A DNA stretch of 64,000 nt, from contig JAIQFV010000006.1 in the NCBI GenBank assembly GCA_020073085.1, positions 124,001 to 188,000 on the forward strand. The letters run 5' to 3'. Position numbers and translations under genes: made by a program. Origin of the DNA: Terriglobia bacterium. GTDB taxonomy: Bacteria; Acidobacteriota; Terriglobia; JAIQFV01. Shown in pieces: positions 40,494-54,677 of the stretch. The notes under the pieces were generated by a model, which saw only the letters and a list, made by a program, of their open reading frames with translations, had not been told where the DNA came from and searched no databases. Each line of letters opens with the position of its first letter. Position 1 is the stretch's first letter.

Positions 40494-42503
40494 ATGAAGC
40501 GTGAACGAATTATGGGCGTTCTGCTGGCCCTCTCTTTTATTTTAGGAATGGGGAAAGCCTTCTCTCAAGCCCCGAGCTCTGATCAAACGAAGCAAGAGAA
40601 GCCGCAAACTCAAGCGGAGGATCAGAAGCGAAAGTATCCAGCCTTGCCGAGCGAAACGCCACCCGAATTCAAGCGGGCAATCGACAGCTTCGACTACATC
40701 CGGCGGGACGTCATGATCCCCATGCGTGACGGAGTGAAGCTGCACACCGTCATCCTCATCCCGAAGGGCGCGAGCGGTGCGCCGATGCTGCTGACGCGCA
40801 CGCCCTACGACGCCACCAAGCTGACGAACCACGCTGAGAGTTCCCATCTCGGCCCGATCCTTGAGGGGTACGACAACACCGTCGACGTGATTGTCGAGGG
40901 CGGTTACATCCGCGTGGTCCAGGACGTCCGCGGCAAGCATGGCTCGGAGGGGGACTACATGATGAACCGCCCACAGCACGGGCCGCTCAACCCGACTCCG
41001 GTGGATCATGCCACCGATACCTACGACACCATCGACTGGCTGGTCAAAAACGTTCCGGAGTCGAACGGCCGAGTGGGCATCCTGGGCATCTCTTACGACG
41101 GTTTCACGCCGCTGATGGCGCTGGTCCATCCGCATCCCGCACTGAAAGTGTCGGTGCCGATGAACCCCATGGTGGACGGCTGGATGGGCGACGACTGGTT
41201 CCACAACGGCGCTTTCCGTGAGCTGGGCATGGCCTACATCCTGGACCAGGAGGCGACGCGCAAGTCGGAGCCCCAGTGGTGGACAAGCCACTTTGATGAT
41301 TATGATATGTTCATGGAAGCGGGATCGGCAGGCGAGCTCGGCCGCCGCCGCGGTCTCGAACAGGTCGGCTTCTGGAGGAACATTCTCGCGCACCCTAGCT
41401 ATGACGCCTTCTGGCGCGATCAAGCGGTGGACAAATTATTGGCGGCAGAGCCGCTGAAGGTACCGGTGATGCTCGTGGACAGCCTGTGGGATCAGGAGGA
41501 CATCTACGGCGCCATCGCTGTCTACAAGGCCATCAAGCCCAAGGACACAGACAACGATAAGGTTTTCCTGGTGCTGGGCCCGTGGCACCACGGCCAGGAA
41601 ATTCGTGATGGCAGCACGCTCGGTCCATTGAAATTTAACAGCGATACCGCGCTCACCTTCCGCCGGGAGATCCTGCGCCCTTTCCTGGACCAATACTTGA
41701 AGGATGGCGCGCCCAAAGCCGACGTTTCACCGGTCATGGCGTTTGAGACCGGGACGAACACATGGCGTCGCCTGCCCGCTTGGCCCGCCGGCTGCACTTC
41801 CGGCTGCACGATCCAGGCGACGCCGATCTATCTTTCCGCAGGCTTGAAACTCCACTTCGCCGCCCCTAAGATCGGGGACGCGGCGTTCGACGAATATGTC
41901 TCTGACCCCAGCAAACCCGTTCCGTTTCACGCGCGCCCCATTCCTGCCGGCAACTTCGATGGCGGCAAGAGCTGGCGCGAGTGGCTGGTGACCGATCAGC
42001 GCGAGGCTGCGGGGCGCCCGGATGTTCTAGCGTTCGTCTCCGATGTCCTCAAATCGCCTGTCAAGATCAGCGGACAGCCGCAAGTGCACTTGGTCGCCTC
42101 CACCAGCGGGACCGACTCTGACTGGGTGGTCAAGTTGATCGACGTCTACCCCGACGAAGTGGCGGCCCAGCCGGAAATGGGCGGATATCAACTGATGGTT
42201 TCCGCCGACATCTTCCGCGGCCGCTATCGCGAAAGCCTGGAGACGGCCAAGCCCATCGCAGCAGACCAGCCGCTGCCGTACCGCTTTGCCCTGCCCACGG
42301 CGAACCACGTCTTCCTACCCGGGCACCGCATCATGGTGCAGGTCCAATCGAGCTGGTTCCCCCTCTACGACCGCAATCCGCAGACCTTCGTTCCCAACAT
42401 TTTCTGGGCAAAGCCTGGGGATTACCGTAAGGCCGTCGAGCGCATCTACCACGCCCCCGACCAGGCGAGTTTTATCGAACTGCCGTTGGTCGTGACGCAT
42501 TGA
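40494..42503 (+). CDS. secreted CocE/NonD family hydrolase (X-Pro dipeptidyl-peptidase S15 fold)
   Basis: 669 aa. A signal peptide (about 1-26) and a low-complexity linker precede the S15/CocE hydrolase domain. The nucleophile elbow is LGISYDGFTPL; the likely Asp is in VDSLWDQEDIYG and the likely His in LGPWHHGQ. The C-terminal jelly-roll domain includes SGTDSDWVVKLIDVYP. Relatives hydrolyse acyl esters or amino-acid amides. GGAGG lies 9 nt upstream of the ATG. A ~95-bp piece of a second copy of the C-terminal domain lies at 43446. Confidence 0.9.
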   Translation: MKRERIMGVLLALSFILGMGKAFSQAPSSDQTKQEKPQTQAEDQKRKYPALPSETPPEFKRAIDSFDYIRRDVMIPMRDGVKLHTVILIPKGASGAPMLLTRTPYDATKLTNHAESSHLGPILEGYDNTVDVIVEGGYIRVVQDVRGKHGSEGDYMMNRPQHGPLNPTPVDHATDTYDTIDWLVKNVPESNGRVGILGISYDGFTPLMALVHPHPALKVSVPMNPMVDGWMGDDWFHNGAFRELGMAYILDQEATRKSEPQWWTSHFDDYDMFMEAGSAGELGRRRGLEQVGFWRNILAHPSYDAFWRDQAVDKLLAAEPLKVPVMLVDSLWDQEDIYGAIAVYKAIKPKDTDNDKVFLVLGPWHHGQEIRDGSTLGPLKFNSDTALTFRREILRPFLDQYLKDGAPKADVSPVMAFETGTNTWRRLPAWPAGCTSGCTIQATPIYLSAGLKLHFAAPKIGDAAFDEYVSDPSKPVPFHARPIPAGNFDGGKSWREWLVTDQREAAGRPDVLAFVSDVLKSPVKISGQPQVHLVASTSGTDSDWVVKLIDVYPDEVAAQPEMGGYQLMVSADIFRGRYRESLETAKPIAADQPLPYRFALPTANHVFLPGHRIMVQVQSSWFPLYDRNPQTFVPNIFWAKPGDYRKAVERIYHAPDQASFIELPLVVTH

Positions 42504-42674
42504 GAGGGGACGATAGTGGAAAAAAGGTCCGGCAGGCCCGAATAGTAGAGAGAATCAGGAAGGGCGGATCCGCATTTCTGAACGAGATCGGCACGCACAG
42601 CATTTCTATTGACGGGCTGATCTCCCGAAACGGGCGCCTGTCCCCGGTTTGTGGAGTGCATTACTTCTCTTGAT

Positions 42675-43368: not shown

Positions 43369-43445
43369 AGATAATCCTACGCTGTTGAGAACGGTTGAAA
43401 GAAAATACATGCGGGTCCGGGACCGCCATCCTCCTGGTCCACCGT

Positions 43446-43542
43446 GTCGCCTCCACCAGCGGGACCGGCTCCGACTGGGTGGTCAAGCTGATCGACGTCT
43501 ACCTGGGCGAGTTGGCGGGGCAACCCAAGATAGGGGTTATCG
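43446..43542 (+). pseudogene. fragment of a second CocE/NonD hydrolase gene
   Basis: Aligns to 42093-42189 inside the intact hydrolase gene. It is nearly identical for the first ~70 nt and diverges after that. The translation VASTSGTGSDWVVKLIDVYLGEL matches the C-terminal domain of that enzyme. Frames before and after are not hydrolase-like. It ends at the 18-bp repeat that marks the left side of the defence cluster. Confidence 0.75.
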
Positions 43543-43560
43543 AATGTTCGTGCCTGACCC
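43543..43560. repeat. 18-bp direct repeat, left flank of the defence cluster
   Basis: AATGTTCGTGCCTGACCC differs at two positions from AATGTCGGTGCCTGACCC at 48994-49011, same orientation. A third relative, AATGTGTAAGCCTGACCC, is at 3388-3405. Confidence 0.65.
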
Positions 43561-43594
43561 TAACGGGTTTCTTTTGCCTTCCTGATTAGTCCGC

Positions 43595-43658: not shown

Positions 43659-46505
43659 TTGCCCAATTCAATCGAGGCCCTAAAAGGGCGATTGCAGAAA
43701 CTCATTACCAAATTCCAAGCTGACCGAGAGTACTATCTTTCCAGCAAATACCTCGAAGCCCAGGCCCGCGTGGACTTCGTCACGCCTTTTTTCAAAGCGC
43801 TTGGTTGGGATGTTGAAAATGAAGCCGGCGCACTTCACCACCAGCGGGAAGTCATCGTCGAGCGAGGCGAGGCAGAAACTGAAGGCCGACCTGATTACAG
43901 CTTTCGAATCGCCGGCCAAACCAGATTCTTCGTCGAGGCCAAGGCCCCTTGCGAAACTCTAAGCACACCAAAGCACATTCTTCAGGCCAAGGGCTACGCT
44001 TGGAACACCAAGCAGGTTTCCTTTGTGATCCTGACGGACTTTGAGGAATTCCGCTTCTACGACGCTTCCATTCGGCCCGACGAGCGCATGCCGGATGAAG
44101 GTCTCCTACTTTCACTCAAGTACACCGAGTACCTCAGAAATGCAGAGAAGCTCTGGGAGTTTTCTCGGGAGCGTGTTGCGGCGGGCTCACTGGACGCGAT
44201 GTTGCCTCGCGATCGGCGTACTCAGCGTCTACGGATCCCGGTTGATGCGGCGTTCCTCGATGAGATGACCGGCTGGCGCGAAGACCTAGCCCGGAATGTT
44301 TTCAAAAACAATCCCGACCTTACCGCCAAGCAACTGAACGAAATCGTTCAGCGCTTGCTTGACCGTATCGTCTTCGTCCGCATTGCTGAAGACCGGCGCA
44401 TCATCGAGAAGAACCAGCTCCGCGACGCAGTGGAAGAATGGCGGGCGCGCGGTGGCAAGTTTCATATCTTTGACTGGTTGAACGATCTCTTCCACAAGAT
44501 CAACGACGACTTCAACGGCGAAATCTTCAAGCCACACCTTTCGGAAACCATCAAGATCGAGTCTGAGGGGCTTGCAAAAATCATTGAGCGCCTCTACCCA
44601 CCAAAAAGCCCTTATCGTTTCGATGTCATCGGCGTCGAACTGCTCGGCTCCATCTATGAACGTTACCTGGGGAAAACTATCCGGCCCACCGCCAAAACCG
44701 TCCGAGTCGAGGAAAAGCCAGAGGTTCGCAAGGCCGGCGGCGTCTATTACACACCCAAATACATTGTCGATTACATCGTCAAGAACACAGTAGGCAAAGT
44801 CGCTGAAGGAAAGACGCCCAGACAAATCGAGAAAATCCGCATCCTCGATCCGGCATGCGGCTCTGGTTCCTTCCTCATCGGCGCATTTCAATATCTCATT
44901 GATTACCATGTGCGCTACCTCATTGAACACCCGAAGGAAGCTCGCGTTCATCCGCTGTTCCCAGACTTGATCAAGGATGAAAGTGGTGAGCCCCGGCTGT
45001 CGGTCATTCGCAAGGCGCGCATATTGAAGAACAACCTCTTCGGGGTGGACATCGACCCTCAGGCTGTTGAGATCACTATGATGAGCCTTTACCTCAAGGC
45101 TCTCGATGGTGAGAAATCGCAGCTCCCGCCGAAGCACCACTTGTTGCCCGAACTCAAGTACAACATCATTTGCGGGAATTCCCTCATCGGTCCAGATATC
45201 TATAGCCAGGGCACACTGTTCGGCGAGGCGGATCGTGATCGTATCAATGCATTCGACTGGAATTCTGTCGTCGCAGGTTTTGGCGACGAAATGAAATCAG
45301 GGGGATTCAATTGCGTGATTGGAAATCCACCATACGGCGCCTCGCTCGGCGATTCTGAAAAGCCGTATCTGTCCCAGAAATTCAAGACAGCCACAAGCGA
45401 ACTTGATACTTACAGCATGTTCATAGAACGGGCAGTCGGAGTTTGCGCGCCCAGAGGCCGCGTATCGATGATTGTGCCAACTGGTTGGTACAGTGGTTCA
45501 AAATTCTCGAAGCTCCGGCAATTCATTGCGGTACAAACGGATCCACAAACGTTGATCAACCTTCCCTATGATGTCTTCCCAGCGTGGGTTGACACAACGA
45601 TTTTTGTCTTTTCCAAACGTGCTGAACCAACGACTTGGCCACGCCGAAGCCGCTGCGGGGTCCTCCTGAAGACCTTTTCAAAACGACATAAAATCAAGTC
45701 GCTATCTGAGTTTGAGGAGGACACGAAATTTGCTGAACTGACAAGCTGGTTTGCACTGGGAGGGGACGAATTCCTAACTTACGCAGACGAGGCCACAAGC
45801 AGGATTATCACAAAAATGCAGAGGACAGGTAAGCCTCTCGGAGAGATCTCGGATGTCCAGCGTGGTGTGACCCCGTTCAATCTCACACCCACGCGCGAGC
45901 AAAAATGTAGCGTGCGCGCTTTTGCTGGGACGGTACGCCGATATTCCATTGTAATGGGTCCTCGAAGATTCATTCGATTTGATGACACTCTGGCAGAACC
46001 TAAACCCGATCGGTATTTCAAAGGACCACGACTGCTCTTGCGGGAACTTATAAGTCGCCAGTTTAGGCTTCAGGCAGTGAAGACCACCGAGGATTTTGTC
46101 ACCAACAAATCGATGCAGAGTATTTTGCAAGGCCAGGCCGGGCCAGCCCTGAACTTTATTCTCGGGTGTGTGAACAGCCGACTGATGTCGTGGTACTTTC
46201 TGCATCGATCTAACATCGCGCAACGCGACGATTTTCCTAAGATTGTTTTAAAGGAGAGCCGGGGTTTGCCTATCCACTTGCCAAATGTTCACGATCCTGC
46301 AGATAAGGCGCGCCACGATAAGCTCGTGGCGCTCGTGGACCAGATGCTAGAACTGCACAACCAAAAGTGTTCCGCTAAGCTGGCACCATCGGAACTAGCT
46401 CGTATTGACCGGGAAATCGGTGTAACTGATCGCGAAGTTGACGAATTAGTCTACGAGCTCTACAAAATCACATATGAAGAAAGAAGGCTGATCGAGGAAG
46501 GCTAG
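43659..46505 (+). CDS. type IIG restriction-modification enzyme (Eco57I-like, nuclease + N6-adenine methylase)
   Basis: 948 aa single-chain enzyme that both cuts and methylates DNA. An N-terminal PD-(D/E)xK nuclease shows RPDYSFRI...FFVEAKAP (Asp about residue 78, ExK about 93-95). A helical linker precedes the methylase: motif I ILDPACGSGSFLIGAF (about 396-411) and motif IV NCVIGNPPYGAS (about 553-564). The C-terminal ~270 residues look like a TaqI-type specificity domain. The start is TTG. The stop is followed directly by the TIR gene with no gap. Recognition sequence cannot be predicted. Confidence 0.92.
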   Translation: MPNSIEALKGRLQKLITKFQADREYYLSSKYLEAQARVDFVTPFFKALGWDVENEAGALHHQREVIVERGEAETEGRPDYSFRIAGQTRFFVEAKAPCETLSTPKHILQAKGYAWNTKQVSFVILTDFEEFRFYDASIRPDERMPDEGLLLSLKYTEYLRNAEKLWEFSRERVAAGSLDAMLPRDRRTQRLRIPVDAAFLDEMTGWREDLARNVFKNNPDLTAKQLNEIVQRLLDRIVFVRIAEDRRIIEKNQLRDAVEEWRARGGKFHIFDWLNDLFHKINDDFNGEIFKPHLSETIKIESEGLAKIIERLYPPKSPYRFDVIGVELLGSIYERYLGKTIRPTAKTVRVEEKPEVRKAGGVYYTPKYIVDYIVKNTVGKVAEGKTPRQIEKIRILDPACGSGSFLIGAFQYLIDYHVRYLIEHPKEARVHPLFPDLIKDESGEPRLSVIRKARILKNNLFGVDIDPQAVEITMMSLYLKALDGEKSQLPPKHHLLPELKYNIICGNSLIGPDIYSQGTLFGEADRDRINAFDWNSVVAGFGDEMKSGGFNCVIGNPPYGASLGDSEKPYLSQKFKTATSELDTYSMFIERAVGVCAPRGRVSMIVPTGWYSGSKFSKLRQFIAVQTDPQTLINLPYDVFPAWVDTTIFVFSKRAEPTTWPRRSRCGVLLKTFSKRHKIKSLSEFEEDTKFAELTSWFALGGDEFLTYADEATSRIITKMQRTGKPLGEISDVQRGVTPFNLTPTREQKCSVRAFAGTVRRYSIVMGPRRFIRFDDTLAEPKPDRYFKGPRLLLRELISRQFRLQAVKTTEDFVTNKSMQSILQGQAGPALNFILGCVNSRLMSWYFLHRSNIAQRDDFPKIVLKESRGLPIHLPNVHDPADKARHDKLVALVDQMLELHNQKCSAKLAPSELARIDREIGVTDREVDELVYELYKITYEERRLIEEG

Positions 46506-46988
46506 GTGAACGATATGGCGTATACAATTTTCCTGAGCCACAGCTCTTCAGATAAGGAATGGGTCAAATGGATTGCTGCCAATGCACAGCAGGTGGGTAT
46601 AGAGGTGTACCTTTACGAACATGACCCGCAGCCAGGCAGACTGGTCGCTGACAAGCTCCAAGCTGCAATCCATGTTTGTGATTCATTGGTCGTGTTGATT
46701 ACCGGAAACAGTCAATTCTCGCCTTATGTCCAGCAGGAAATTGGATCGGCCAAAGCGCTGAATAAGCCCGTGATTCCACTCGTCCAACCAGGCATTGGCC
46801 AGTCGAGCCTCGCGATGTTGCAAGGAGAGGAGTACATACCGTTTGACTTCGCCAGCCCTGAGCATGCAATGTCCGCGCTTTTGGATTATTTACAGAGAGC
46901 AAAACAGAGCAAGGAGAAGGGGCAAGGTGCTCTCTTGGTGATTGGAGCGATCATCGTCGGGGCTTTACTCCTCAAAGGCAAGGGCTAA
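46506..46988 (+). CDS. TIR-domain protein with C-terminal membrane anchor
   Basis: 160 aa. The TIR domain (about 5-125) begins YTIFLSHSSSDKEWVKWIA and includes YVQQEIGSAKALNKPVIPL, where Glu78 is the likely NADase residue. A basic linker and one C-terminal helix (GALLVIGAIIVGALLLKGKG) follow, so the protein should sit at the membrane facing the cytoplasm. Bacterial TIR effectors deplete NAD+ or make signalling nucleotides during phage infection. The GTG start abuts the stop of the restriction-modification gene; an ATG at 46515 is an alternative. The 285 bp after it contain no clear gene. Confidence 0.85.
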   Translation: MNDMAYTIFLSHSSSDKEWVKWIAANAQQVGIEVYLYEHDPQPGRLVADKLQAAIHVCDSLVVLITGNSQFSPYVQQEIGSAKALNKPVIPLVQPGIGQSSLAMLQGEEYIPFDFASPEHAMSALLDYLQRAKQSKEKGQGALLVIGAIIVGALLLKGKG

Positions 46989-47273
46989 AGGCTTTTGACT
47001 TTAACGACATGACCCGGTATGACAACTTGTAGCACTGTTCAAGAGGATGCTGGAACTGCACTGGAAGGAACATTCGGTTTCGCCTTGCCAAATTGTGCAC
47101 TCGGAACATGACGGCATCGACGGCAAAATCGCTGTGACCGACCGCCCAAGAATGAAATTGCATGTGACAAATCCAACGTCGCGGCCAAGGATCGAGGCTC
47201 TTCTCCTCTTGGACCGCGCGAATACGAACGGCCGCGCCATGATTTCTTCCGCATGCGATAAAGAGAGATTTCC

Positions 47274-47993
47274 ATGATAAATAGAATGATTGACTTTTCG
47301 AGTCACTTGGATCGAAAGGGCTTTGAATCAGACAGTAAAGCAACATGGGGGCAGTCGTTCTTCGATACTGTGGAAGATCTTAAGTCTCTGCTTAGTCGTC
47401 GCCCGCCAGAGCAAAGGTTACAGCAGTTCTTCGAGAGCCATCCGTACCTGCTTCCCGGCATTGACGCCCTACACAACGGTCCTTTGGCTGGAATCGTCGC
47501 TACGAAATTCTGTTTAGGGAATTCATTCCAGACTGATTTCTCCTTTGTCAGCGCAAATTCTCAAGAACTACGAATTACCTGCGTGGAGATTGAATCACCC
47601 CGGAAGAGCATTTTCAGAAAGGATGGGGAATTCAGCCGTGACTACTTAATGGCAAAACAACAGATTCTGGACTGGATGTTTTGGGCACACCACAACGTTA
47701 AACAGGCATTAGATTGTTGGGGCCCTCTCATGGGGGGACGAGTCCGGAGACTACACACGATATATTTCGGGGGCTATCTCGTTTTTGGCAGAAGGGCCGA
47801 GATAGATAACCCTAAGAAGCAGGAACGATGGTCAGCGGAAGATCTAACTCTTGCCAGAGGCTTGTCAACCATGACGTATGACAGATTGCTGGACTGGAGA
47901 GAAGGTCGCTGGATTCCAAAGATACGGTACGGAAAAATTGCAGTATGTTCTTACAAGGACAGAAGATTCATCGCCAAGAAGCTGTGTATTTAG
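47274..47993 (+). CDS. Shedu-like nuclease protein (DUF4263-related), ExE variant
   Basis: 239 aa. The pattern EQRLQQFFESHPYLLPG (about 46-62), TDFSFVSA (Asp88) and CVEIESPRKSIFRKDGEF (Glu105, Glu107), with the downstream Gln in AKQQILDWMFWA (about 127-138), matches the PD-(D/E)xK core of Shedu/DUF4263 proteins. The usual Lys of ExK is replaced, giving E-I-E. Shedu proteins give single-gene phage resistance. It is shorter than classical SduA and has no obvious N-terminal sensor domain. It lies in the defence cluster on the same strand as the TIR gene. Confidence 0.7.
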   Translation: MINRMIDFSSHLDRKGFESDSKATWGQSFFDTVEDLKSLLSRRPPEQRLQQFFESHPYLLPGIDALHNGPLAGIVATKFCLGNSFQTDFSFVSANSQELRITCVEIESPRKSIFRKDGEFSRDYLMAKQQILDWMFWAHHNVKQALDCWGPLMGGRVRRLHTIYFGGYLVFGRRAEIDNPKKQERWSAEDLTLARGLSTMTYDRLLDWREGRWIPKIRYGKIAVCSYKDRRFIAKKLCI

Positions 47994-48184
47994 AAGAACT
48001 GGGGTCGACTATGAATGCGGACGAACTAAAAGGGCTGGGGCAGGATGTGTCCAAACTCATCTGGGCAAGTATCAAATTGTGAAATCTGGGCGGTTTATGA
48101 CATCAGAGTGTAAGAGAGATGGATTTTTGAAGAGAGAGTGAATTCCTCCGGCCTTGTCAGAGAGCAGGAGAGGAGGCTAGCCCC

Positions 48185-48799
48185 ATGCCCGAGACGATGA
48201 ATCAGATATTAGTCTTGTTGGTTTTCATAGTGCCTGGCTTCATTGTGATTCGAGTGAAGCGCATCGCCTATCCAAGAGCTGAGGAGGCGACGCTCAGCAT
48301 CGTCCTTGACAGTCTCGCACTCAGCAGCTTGGTTCACGCCATCTGTTTTCCGATTTGGTATTGGATTTATGCTTCTCGGTCTTACGCCACAGCGCCAACT
48401 CTCTTCGTGCTGCAGGTGTTCGTGATCCTGCTCCTTGTTCCTGTTCTGTTCGGCATTCTGTTCAATTTTTCTGTCAGGACAGACAAGGCCCGATGGCTTC
48501 GTGAATTTCTCTATTTTCCGCATCCCGACCCCACGGCATGGGACTACCATTTTAGAAAGGGAAGGGCCTACTGGATTTGGTTGACATTCAAGAATGGTCA
48601 AGTGATGGCTGGGCTCTTCGGCCCAAATTCGTTCGCGGGCTCCTTTCCGAACAGGCAAGACCTTTACATCGAGAAATTGCTTTCACTCGATGAGCATGGT
48701 AAAGTCAAATCGTTAATCGAAAACTCTGCGGGAGCGCTCGTAAGGATGGATGATTTGGACCGCATCGAGTTCTTCGAGATCGGAGGAGTCAAAGTATGA
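48185..48799 (+). CDS. DUF6338 family membrane protein
   Basis: 204 aa. Three membrane helices (about 7-23, 44-65 and 75-97) precede a cytoplasmic C-terminal domain with PHPDPTAWDYHFRKGRAYWIWLTFKNGQVMAGLFG and NRQDLYIEKLLSLDEHGKV, the pattern of DUF6338. No enzymatic motif is evident. GGAGAGGAGG precedes the ATG. Its stop overlaps the start of a 64-aa gene by 4 bp, so the two act as a unit. Function unknown. Confidence 0.7.
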   Translation: MPETMNQILVLLVFIVPGFIVIRVKRIAYPRAEEATLSIVLDSLALSSLVHAICFPIWYWIYASRSYATAPTLFVLQVFVILLLVPVLFGILFNFSVRTDKARWLREFLYFPHPDPTAWDYHFRKGRAYWIWLTFKNGQVMAGLFGPNSFAGSFPNRQDLYIEKLLSLDEHGKVKSLIENSAGALVRMDDLDRIEFFEIGGVKV

Positions 48800-48990
48800 G
48801 TGAAGAGAAGACAGTTCGTGCACTTCGGGAAAGCCATCAGCCTCTCAAAAATGAGATCACTAAAGGTTATCCGGTTAGTCAGCAGGTAGATCTGGCCAAC
48901 CTCAAGCCCCCTTCAAACCTCGGAAGCGCGGCTGTCACCCCGCAGAACTCGAATCAGTCAGCTCCTGCCCCCGCCAAGACTAACAAGTGA
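48796..48990 (+). CDS. small partner protein of the DUF6338 gene
   Basis: 64 aa, hydrophilic. Residues 15-30 (QPLKNEITKGYPVSQQ) look conserved-like, and the rest is Ser/Pro/Asn-rich and probably disordered. It starts at ATGA overlapping the DUF6338 stop. It resembles the small proteins that accompany DUF6338 membrane proteins, but this is from pattern memory. Stop lies 4 bp before the right-hand 18-bp repeat. Confidence 0.6.
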   Translation: MSEEKTVRALRESHQPLKNEITKGYPVSQQVDLANLKPPSNLGSAAVTPQNSNQSAPAPAKTNK

Positions 48991-48993
48991 AGG

Positions 48994-49011
48994 AATGTCG
49001 GTGCCTGACCC
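48994..49011. repeat. 18-bp direct repeat, right flank of the defence cluster
   Basis: AATGTCGGTGCCTGACCC, direct copy of 43543-43560 with two differences. The block between them holds exactly the restriction-modification, TIR, Shedu-like, DUF6338 and small-partner genes. Confidence 0.65.
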
Positions 49012-49030
49012 GAATTCCTATTACAGCCGT

Positions 49031-50116
49031 TCAGGGTTGTGTGAGATCAAATCTTTTCTTGAGGTAGTTGAATCGCGAGAATGGGATCCTCCCTTCGTGC
49101 TGCAAGCGACCCACGACAATACCCGCCGAAATGCCAAGGGAATCCGCAAGGGCCCGGATTCCGGGTTCTGTAAACTTCGATGCGACAATGAATCGCCGCC
49201 ATTGGGACTCGGGGATGAGGTGGGTTGTGGCGAAGGCGTCCGCTTCTCGCTCTTTGTCGTTTCCACCGGCGCCATCCTCCAGGAATACGTCGCGTTTGCC
49301 ATGCAACGCCACATGACCCGCCTCGTGGAAGAAGGTGAACCAAAAGATGTCTTCCACCTTGTACCTACAACTCAATTGGATGATCGGATGATCGCCCACC
49401 CATCTTACCGCACCATGGATTGAAGTATGGGGAAGCTCCTCCACGAAAACCACGGCTACACCAGCCTTACGACACGCTGCCGTCAGGGACCGTTTCAACG
49501 CGGCGGGACGCATCTTCATGAGACCGCGCATACGACCAAGCTGTTGCTTGAAGACGGTCCGTTCAAATGCCGGCAAGCGGAGCTTTCTGGCCGAGACTTC
49601 TCCCAAACGCAACCAGGCCGCCGTGGATTCCGGGCAGGCACGGAAAGCAGTGGACCGGCGGTAAGATGCCGCGGGAGCCGTCCACACCTGGCTCCAGGCG
49701 GAAATGCTGCTCACGCCGAAAAATTGAAACATTGCGCGAACCAAGTCGCCGCCTTCTCGCGATTCGGAGAGGACCCCGCGCTGGGTGAGCTCCTTGACGG
49801 GGAACCTCTTCACCCACTCTGTAGCAGCTTCCAACGATTTTTGTTCTTTCAGGGAGGCTATCGTTTGTCGGTAGTTTCGCTCCAGGTTGTTCCAAAACGA
49901 AGCCGGCAGCGCGAGCACGTGTTCCAACTGCAAGGCAGTTTCTGCGGTAATGGCGGCCTTCCCCTTGATGATTTCGTTTATGGTTTTAAGGGGCCGTCCG
50001 GTGCGTTTGGCCAATTCGGCCTGCGAAAGACCGAGCGATTGAATCGTTTCAAGCAGGGTCGCCCCTGGAGGCACGGCGTAGTCCGGCTTAAACTCAATTC
50101 TTCTCTTAGCGATCAT
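49031..50116 (-). CDS. HigA-type XRE regulator fused to an ImmA/IrrE metallopeptidase domain
   Basis: 361 aa. The N-terminal helix-turn-helix (about 25-75) has LSQAELAKRTGRPLKTINEIIKGKAAI, typical of HigA antitoxins. The C-terminal half contains FFHEAGHVALHGK, the zinc site of ImmA/IrrE peptidases, followed by KEREADAFATTHLIP with the third ligand Glu. Such fusions act as stress-responsive repressors or antitoxins. Start 50116 is chosen because GAGGA lies upstream; the frame runs on to 50197. No toxin gene is seen directly upstream or downstream. Confidence 0.88.
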   Translation of the reverse strand: MIAKRRIEFKPDYAVPPGATLLETIQSLGLSQAELAKRTGRPLKTINEIIKGKAAITAETALQLEHVLALPASFWNNLERNYRQTIASLKEQKSLEAATEWVKRFPVKELTQRGVLSESREGGDLVRAMFQFFGVSSISAWSQVWTAPAASYRRSTAFRACPESTAAWLRLGEVSARKLRLPAFERTVFKQQLGRMRGLMKMRPAALKRSLTAACRKAGVAVVFVEELPHTSIHGAVRWVGDHPIIQLSCRYKVEDIFWFTFFHEAGHVALHGKRDVFLEDGAGGNDKEREADAFATTHLIPESQWRRFIVASKFTEPGIRALADSLGISAGIVVGRLQHEGRIPFSRFNYLKKRFDLTQP

Positions 50117-50184
50117 GGTAGTCCTCAATTGACGATTGGACAGGGATTCTGAGTTTGCCGCCTTCGCGAACTTGCCCGAATGAA

Positions 50185-50238
50185 AGCTTATTCTCATGGC
50201 TTGATTATGTCAATAGTTTTATTAACCCTTAGGGTTAA
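50185..50238 (-). promoter_or_regulatory. putative promoter and operator of the HigA/ImmA gene
   Basis: On the minus strand TTGACA (50213-50208), 17-nt spacer and TAAGCT (50190-50185). Just upstream lies an inverted repeat TTAACCC-tta-GGGTTAA (50222-50238) in an AT-rich stretch, a plausible autoregulatory operator for the XRE protein. The -10 box is weak. Confidence 0.4.
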
Positions 50239-51601: not shown

Positions 51602-51624
51602 AGCCTCACTAACGAGTCCGACAA

Positions 51625-51761
51625 AGTGGTTTGGGTAGCGCCGCCACGGTTTCTGGTGGCGGGGGCGTTGGCGCGCGGGGGGCAGGGTAGCTGAATACAT
51701 ACCGGTCGCCGGCACAAGCCCCCGCCGGGTAGAGAGCACCCGGCGGGGCTACCAAAGCAAG
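51625..51761. repeat. tandem repeat of about 148-bp period, copy 1
   Basis: GTGGTTTGGGTAGCGCCGCC..., a GGTAGCTGAATACATACCGG stretch, then CCCCCGCCGGG/CCCGGCGGGG, which forms a hairpin. Repeated almost exactly at 51772. Minus-strand ORFs across it are repeat artefacts. Confidence 0.8.
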
Positions 51762-51771
51762 GCACCATCCG

Positions 51772-51908
51772 AAGTGGTTTGGGTAGCGCCGCCACGGTTT
51801 CTGGTGGCGGGGGCGTTGGCGCGCGAGGGGCAGAGTAGCTGAATACATACCGGGCGCCGGCACAAGCCCCCGCCGGGCAGAGAGCACCCGGCGGGGCTAC
51901 CAAAGCAG
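51772..51908. repeat. tandem repeat of about 148-bp period, copy 2
   Basis: Second copy of 51625-51761 with a few substitutions and the same CCCCGCCGGG...CCCGGCGGGG hairpin. A partial third copy is at 54359-54434. Confidence 0.8.
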
Positions 51909-52011
51909 GACACAATTGGATATCAAGACAAAGGGGCAGGCTCCGACATCCGGCAACTGTTTCATTGGATGGCAGGGGAGGTTCGTGACGGAATAGCTGT
52001 GATTCGGATAT

Positions 52012-54171: not shown

Positions 54172-54677
54172 CATCGGCCAGATCGGTTCATGGTGCGACC
54201 CCGCGCGGGACTTGACTCGGGGCAAGATGACGCCCGCGGCGCAAGGATCGCAGCTCCCTGTGATTCACGGCCCGGCCCCTAGGCTTGCCGGTGCAGTCCG
54301 ACCGCCAAGAGCAACCACACAACAGACAGGACCGCCAATCCGAGCGGGGGCGTTTGCGTGGGGCAGGGTAGCTGAATACATACCGGCCGCAGGCACAAGC
54401 CCCCGCCGGGCAAAAAGCGCCAGGCGGGGCTACCCAGTCGGAGCAGAAGAATAAATGAGTGTCAGATCTCTGCAAACGGCGATTGACCGAGAAAGGCGTC
54501 CTGTTTTCAAAATGAAGAAACAGTATTTCGCGCCTGCAGAGACTTGACACTCGTCATTCAGATCTGTTTTGGAAATCCTGGCGCCGTGTTATCGCAACAA
54601 CGCGTCCTTTTGCCCTGAGACGTAGACGGGAAATGAGCATCGGTCCGCCTCGGGGATCGTTGCCGCGTTCGGTTGAA
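54172..54677. other. intergenic region with a partial repeat
   Basis: About 500 bp with no convincing gene. It contains 54359-54434, a third, partial copy of the repeat at 51625, and short frames only. Confidence 0.5.
54359..54434. repeat. partial third copy of the 148-bp repeat
   Basis: GGGGCAGGGTAGCTGAATACATACCGG followed by GCACAAGCCCCCGCCGGG and GGCGGGGCTACC, same orientation as the tandem copies at 51.6-51.9 kb. Confidence 0.7.

Follow-up and report, generated by a model that had tools for sequence, protein, structure and literature searches.

The window, the 64,000-nucleotide stretch of Terriglobia bacterium DNA analysed here, carries a cassette of about 5.2 kb in which a type IIG restriction-modification (RM) gene, a TIR gene, a Shedu-like nuclease gene and a DUF6338 membrane protein gene follow one another on the same strand, with a tiny partner gene coming last (Table 1). 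An earlier note on this DNA had placed the last two genes inside a defence cluster, and the RM, TIR and SduA_C genes upstream bear this out.

Table 1. Genes and features of the defence cassette (positions in the window).
Feature	Coordinates	Strand	Details
22-bp direct repeat, left copy	43542..43563	+	GAATGTnnGTGCCTGACCCnAA; flanks the cassette
Type IIG restriction enzyme-methyltransferase (Eco57I type)	43659..46505	+	First gene of the cassette; PDLC03604 540 bits; Eco57I 112.7 bits
Stretch missing from congener G001	43784..49024		blastn, window 33001-60000 against G001:C24; flanks collinear
TIR-domain protein	46506..46988	+	160 aa; TIR_2 68 bits; ThsB 42.3 bits
Shedu-like nuclease domain protein (SduA_C / DUF4263)	47274..47993	+	Directly upstream of DUF6338; Pfam 63.6 bits; PADLOC SduA 96.5 bits
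DUF6338 protein gene	48185..48799	+	204 aa, ATG start; Pfam PF19865 119.5 bits
Partner gene	48796..48990	+	64 aa, ATG start; disordered, divergent GYxP-class member; RESHQP and KGYP motifs, proline-rich tail
22-bp direct repeat, right copy	48993..49014	+	2 bp past the partner stop codon

The gene pair and its cassette

The two ORFs of the pair share four bases, ATGA, which agrees with the 4 bp overlap described earlier, and by sequence reading each has a strong Shine-Dalgarno site, AGGAGG at 48171-48176 (8 nt ahead of the ATG) for DUF6338 and GGAGGAG at 48782-48788 (7 nt ahead of the ATG) for the partner. The larger product matches the Pfam family DUF6338 over residues 1-198 (E 1.9e-34, its score standing against a cut-off of 26.5 bits), so that the identity first proposed for it holds and the window protein is a clear member of a family that itself has no assigned function. 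A match to SBF/bile-acid symporters (Pfam E 0.0017, NCBIfam E 0.0022) was rejected as a hydrophobic chance match, being below cut-off and restricted to membrane-helix residues. This match apart, the pair found nothing in PADLOC, PHROG or NCBIfam, one relative having a PHROG match at E 0.06; in PADLOC-DB 2.0.0 no profile family matched the two window proteins at E up to 1, nor any of five other DUF6338 proteins and three other partners searched at E up to 0.1. For the partner itself, no family scored above cut-off in Pfam and none was found in PADLOC, NCBIfam or PHROGs.

The partner stands where members of the class described below stand, as a tiny ORF directly 3' of DUF6338 on the same strand, and it carries no strict G[YFW]xP motif, only the degenerate forms SHQP and KGYP. 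We place it in the GYxP class because of its alignment with the partner at L139, a DUF6338 locus in a genome drawn from our Planctomycetota search, whose partner has SYQP and GYQP. The aligned blocks are RESHQP...KGYP...VDLANLK in the window and RESYQP...KGYQP...VDLRNLK at L139, with an alignment score of 65 against 26.5 +/- 5.1 for shuffled sequences, none of 5000 shuffles scoring as high; on this test the small ORF of the window is judged to be a real gene and no chance reading frame.

In a congeneric genome (G001) the sequence to the left and right of the cassette runs collinear with the window, at 83-93% identity in the main flanking blocks, but of the cassette itself only a 5' fragment of the RM ORF is present. 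What G001 lacks is therefore almost the whole RM gene together with the TIR, SduA, DUF6338 and small genes. Because the RM remnant persists, loss in G001 is as likely as gain in the window genome. The G+C content is 48-51% across 45 to 49 kb, most of the kilobases around it being at 54-64% and one block, at 39 kb, lower, and SduA was found in one of 21 genomes, namely the window's own. The 22-bp repeat is dispersed, with 22 matches in its own genome at up to two mismatches and none for a reversed control; in G001 two copies, inverted, lie at the empty site. The HTH and M78 peptidase gene that follows the cassette (49031-50197, minus strand; best PADLOC match PD-Lambda-2_B, 118 bits) was considered as a further member and rejected, since G001 has the gene, at about 93% DNA identity, although it lacks the cassette. 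Two further features of the surroundings were seen: window 43434-43516 also matches the part of the congener that corresponds to an S15 peptidase gene region (window 41661-42512), perhaps as a duplicated gene fragment, and 51624-51916 consists of tandem repeat units of about 147 bp, proline-codon-rich on the minus strand, with a related piece at 54344-54434.

A class of tiny GYxP partner genes

DUF6338 genes were collected from plasmids, a phage, prophages of E. coli, GTDB genomes and viral contigs, and the ORFs downstream of them were inspected. Profile scans of genome contigs found relatives with an alignment as query and none with a single protein. Time after time the gene is followed by tandem ORFs, one to four in number and some 40-90 codons long, that encode the motif G-Y-x-P; these define the partner class. 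The commonest form of the motif is GYQP, with 168 occurrences in 128 extracted partner ORFs, and many C-termini read (A)PPPKKP, for example APPPKKP. In an automatic pairing test (ORFs of 30-130 aa that contain a strict G[YFW]xP and start between -90 and +200 nt relative to the stop codon), 51 of 72 distinct DUF6338 loci had such an ORF, compared with 27 of the 789 other genes of the tested loci. Admitting proline-rich ORFs raises the count to 60 of 72, but since such ORFs are common in the background (136/789) it is the motif count alone that is strong. The count leaves out duplicate or open-ended loci (L001-L009, L098), near-duplicates, two loci with an interrupted gene (L026, L101) and two at a contig end (L090, L102), while L010-L020 and others that came from family matches below cut-off were likewise set aside. 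L041 is in the pairing count and, at fewer than 150 residues, not in the tree (L138 is on the same contig); at L056 the ORF retained by the test is a chance long ORF and the real partner was identified separately.

In the DUF6338 tree (70 rows) the window's group comprises 49 rows, with weak support (85/4), and 46 of these have an adjacent strict GYxP ORF; together with the wider count this confirms the fixed pairing proposed in the earlier note and extends it beyond what was claimed there. The three exceptions have degenerate motifs: the window itself, L144 (SYQP) and L037 (a GYQA-like start). The actinobacterial group has in part single-motif partners, and the distant group of L133-L136 and L148 has tiny poly-proline ORFs (NPPPP...PPPPPKK) without GYxP, suggesting, from their sequences, an older pairing with proline-rich proteins. 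Inspection of L137, L140-L143, L145-L147, L149 and L150 found no convincing partner beside DUF6338.

Over 90 related partner pairs, 584, 476 and 2064 substitutions fall at codon positions 1, 2 and 3, and a Shine-Dalgarno-like site precedes 95 of the 128 partner ORFs (near-identical loci retained in both counts). Given this third-position excess and these sites, the partners are, by their sequences, real translated genes. Two to four tandem copies occur in 24 of the 85 loci with an automatically found chain. At L026 (near 10363) and L101 (near 8363) the DUF6338 ORF is interrupted at the same relative place and the partners are intact. A DNA search for the pattern GYQP...PPKKP found four viral contigs; on two of them (L160, L161) such an ORF is present and a simple motif search found no DUF6338-like ORF beside it. 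One of these two tiny ORFs has a possible transmembrane segment.

The accessible part of PMC10433244 describes three proline-rich proteins of less than 50 aa from P. stutzeri, encoded together with a DUF6338 gene in what is predicted to be one operon and detected by mass spectrometry with 44-114 PSMs, which its authors regard there as restricted to P. stutzeri and perhaps of de novo origin. As far as that part goes, the operon has the architecture found here, DUF6338 with three tiny proline-rich partners, and on this likeness the three proteins are probably members of the GYxP class; unlike in the view taken there, such partners adjoin DUF6338 in several phyla. Within the literature searched, that paper is the only one in which DUF6338 was found, and nothing relevant was found on GYQP or on Sm-like membrane or defence proteins; supplements and outside preprints apart, no Sm-like fold or GYxP partner class was found described for DUF6338.

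Predicted fold and topology of DUF6338

The three-helix membrane protein with a C-terminal domain that had been proposed from sequence is also what AlphaFold2 predicts. The model (55 aligned sequences; mean pLDDT 85.6, pTM 0.66) has three long helices and a C-terminal beta barrel: predicted transmembrane helices at about residues 3-28, 36-63 and 71-98, a basic linker with an HPxxxxWD motif (113-120) and a predicted Sm-like barrel at 118-198. Among the best 50 PDB matches in Foldseek, nearly all are Sm/LSm proteins, with probabilities of 0.99-1.00 and a best E of only 1.5e-3. The best three VIA-align matches have Z of 8.2, 8.1 and 8.1 (rmsd 4.2, 2.5 and 1.7 over 88, 73 and 60 residues), with many close behind; a Z below about 8 can mean a common arrangement only, and fold families not listed are not thereby excluded. 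One example is 1i5l_B (Z 8.1, rmsd 2.5 over 73 residues). The model also has the short N-terminal helix and strongly bent small barrel by which the Sm/LSm fold is recognised. The scores are modest and the identity is consistent, and we predict that the soluble domain has an Sm/LSm/Hfq-type fold. At the sequence level, a profile search of PDB sequences with DUF6338 found no Sm protein at E up to 10, and an Sm2-like stretch, GILILSxDIxxIEF, was seen by eye only.

The predicted barrel thus resembles those of Sm/LSm/Hfq proteins, N-terminal helix included (Z up to 8.2; in several matches 58-73 residues superpose at rmsd 1.4-2.6), and differs from them in being membrane-anchored, in the conserved loop that joins strands 2 and 3 and in the lack of any sequence-level match to solved chains. 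MscS channels have three transmembrane helices, after which come a cytoplasmic beta domain of Sm-like form, an alpha/beta domain and a terminal barrel. DUF6338 shares with them the three helices and the predicted cytoplasmic Sm-like domain that ensues, but it has a helix and a low-confidence linker between the third transmembrane helix and the barrel and stops after the latter, ending 6 residues past the last strand (191-198 of 204) with no MscS-type alpha/beta domain or terminal barrel.

Positive charge is concentrated in the linker after the third helix (mean K+R 4.3, against 0.02 at the N-terminus), and on this distribution the N-terminus is predicted to lie outside and the C-terminal domain in the cytoplasm. 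H113, P114, W119, D120 and G143 are invariant, and the best conserved region is the loop 147-158 (SFxSSxP; 0.70). Conservation inside the membrane helices at P17, position 50 (mostly N; V in the window) and P86 suggests that the helices are more than an anchor. The barrel is acidic, with on average 12.7 D+E against 7.6 K+R.

As a proxy for the complex, AlphaFold2 was run on the DUF6338 protein of L056 joined in frame to its partner by reading through the stop codon (a 45-row alignment, 11 of the rows joined). The partner is disordered in this model, with a pLDDT of about 30 that rises to 64 in the last seven-residue block, the PPPKKP end. The GYxP motifs received no placement there and the C-terminal rise is modest, giving a weak hint that the conserved PPPKKP tail may dock on DUF6338. 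Membership of the partner in a conserved motif class and the predicted Sm fold of the soluble domain are both new relative to the earlier note.

Mobile contexts, defence neighbours and possible function

DUF6338 is sparsely distributed, scoring over the cut-off in 10 of 396 genomes of the window's own phylum, in 8 of 369 genomes in the class of an Erwinia locus (L032) and in 9 of 294 genomes in the phylum of a Planctomycetota locus (L040), the centre genome being counted each time, and it was not found in the one other genome of its genus that was searched. The largest set found consists of 59 loci on prophage-like viral contigs. By DNA match, copies occur in 6 of 5426 E. coli genomes; the three regions inspected are prophage-like, with DUF6338 as cargo near an integrase, and two of them are of the same type and in the same place. 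Plasmids, prophages and a Tn7-like element provide the other settings. DUF6338 and its GYxP partner travel together on mobile DNA in several phyla, and a housekeeping role was rejected because the gene is sparse, missing from the searched congener and mobile.

We examined the 24 non-prophage loci of the window clade and the actinobacterial group (L022-L025, L027, L028, L034, L037-L041, L132, L139, L144, the window as L151, L153-L157, L159, L163, L164), taking as adjacent the gene nearest to DUF6338 with partner ORFs skipped. A defence gene is directly adjacent in 11 of them. These neighbours are a TIR and then a caspase gene (L023), an E2-E1-JAB system, the pair beginning about 14 bp after the JAB protein gene (L025), a CBASS 2TM effector gene, which the pair follows at about 10 bp (L028; cyclase 414 bits), Gabija GajA/GajB (L038; 906/795 bits), a caspase-like gene (L039; 37.9 bits), a type IIG RM gene (L041; 259 bits, via L138 on the same contig), Mrr (L139; 312 bits), SduA (the window), a type I restriction endonuclease (L153) and a CHAT protease, 3 bp from the partner (L159), both by annotation, and a TIR gene with a caspase gene (L164). 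Two weaker candidates, a DUF4062 gene (L024) and PDC-M03B (L037), bring the count to 13 of 24. The TIR and caspase-like pairs lie at 10838-12206 of L023, a gammaproteobacterial plasmid, and at 7526-8889 of L164, an actinobacterial plasmid, and we take them to resemble TIR-caspase immune pairs, with a likeness to type IV Thoeris. According to the accessible part of PMC13174449, DUF4062 proteins form a family of antiphage NADases.

Control points were set opposite DUF6338 on the record in eight plasmids that carry the gene. None of the eight has an adjacent defence gene and one has a defence gene (a DNA cytosine methyltransferase) at two genes' distance, whereas in 6 of the same 8 plasmids a defence gene stands beside DUF6338; since the contexts were known before the plasmids were chosen, which was not done blind, this comparison is a check and no unbiased estimate. 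Housekeeping neighbours occur at few loci, a class I Glu/Gln tRNA synthetase at L040 and NAD kinase with glutamate dehydrogenase at L132, and the neighbours are on the whole very varied, TetR, Mor and TnsE included. The pattern that the earlier note had named as telling against a link with defence, pairs mainly in housekeeping contexts with no enrichment near defence genes, is therefore not the one that emerged, with 11 to 13 of 24 loci defence-adjacent and 0 of 8 controls. Its proposal of a new defence system stands in part: the defence-adjacent loci speak for it, but a further 11 of the 24 have no adjacent defence gene and the largest set of loci is prophage-like. We infer that the module may act as a defence system.

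Our tentative reading, held at somewhat less than even confidence, is that DUF6338 and its partners form an obligate two-component mobile membrane module in which the GYxP proteins bind the Sm-type barrels and hold a membrane effector or exclusion function quiet. DUF6338 would sit in the inner membrane with its N-terminus out and present its cytoplasmic barrel, the barrels probably forming a ring or cluster. The disordered partners, with their repeated GYxP motifs and PPPKKP-like tail, would bind several barrels at once, most likely at the long conserved loop SFxSSxP; since motifs repeat within partners and partner genes duplicate, they may be a multivalent ligand for a multi-subunit receptor. 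Bound partners would keep the membrane part assembled but quiet until their binding was disturbed by infection or by the output of an adjacent defence system, and the freed membrane part would then either permeabilise the inner membrane (abortive infection) or block the entry of phage DNA (exclusion). A membrane effector or exclusion factor is suggested because the pair often stands beside or ends a defence operon, or is prophage cargo.

Several features of the pair would also be expected of a toxin-antitoxin system serving the stability of plasmids, prophages and islands, with defence secondary, DUF6338 being the membrane toxin and the GYxP proteins the antitoxins. The occurrence on plasmids and prophages as two adjacent and often overlapping genes, the extra tandem partners and the two loci with an interrupted DUF6338 ORF beside an intact partner all fit this explanation, as does, in the accessible part of PMC10433244, the detection by mass spectrometry of partners and not of DUF6338, membrane fractions lying outside that analysis. 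We nevertheless regard it as unlikely, though deserving serious attention: profile searches with the disordered partner found no known family of antitoxins, and maintenance alone leaves the preference for defence neighbours unexplained. Superinfection exclusion by prophages, with DNA entry blocked at the inner membrane and the GYxP proteins acting as assembly factors of something that is no toxin, would account for the 59 prophage-like viral contigs and for the E. coli copies carried as prophage cargo near an integrase; a moron encoding a membrane protein is the classical layout of exclusion. It does not explain why copies are appended to RM, CBASS, Gabija and TIR-caspase systems outside prophages, and we consider it rather improbable.

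The predicted Sm fold could instead point to an RNA-binding protein of Sm/LSm type, tethered to the membrane, which localises RNA or controls it and has nothing to do with phages, the partners modulating RNA binding. The acidic barrel, the mobile contexts and the sparse accessory distribution in the three genome sets all count against it, and we give it little credence. Hardly credible, finally, is the notion that the pair is a passenger in islands that gather mobile genes, with no functional link to its neighbours; the variety of those neighbours, from tRNA synthetase to TetR, Mor and TnsE, is what such a passenger would show, but the tight, operon-like spacing to the CBASS effector, JAB and CHAT genes and the absence of adjacent defence genes at all eight control points argue otherwise.

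The module in which partners keep a membrane protein quiet may be extended, though we think this doubtful, to a new class of ligand-gated effector: a membrane-anchored Sm-fold ring gated by multivalent tandem GYxP proteins, portable, joined again and again to immune systems that are unrelated to one another (CBASS, Gabija, restriction, TIR-caspase, E2-E1-JAB, CHAT), while prophages carry it alone. The literature searched yielded no membrane-tethered Sm-fold protein acting as such an effector. The nuclease-protease pairs that, according to the accessible part of PMC12799240, are recurrently acquired by defence systems have in common with this module that a gene pair is repeatedly joined to unrelated systems; unlike those pairs, as described there, it combines a membrane protein with a disordered, peptide-like partner.

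The module gives a domain of unknown function a concrete, testable role, and it brings to light a class of tiny genes which annotation misses or labels hypothetical. It also recasts small proteins that a proteomics study, in the accessible part of its text (PMC10433244), took for genes that might have arisen de novo. Should the effector reading be true, DUF6338 would be a membrane effector common to several otherwise unrelated immune systems.
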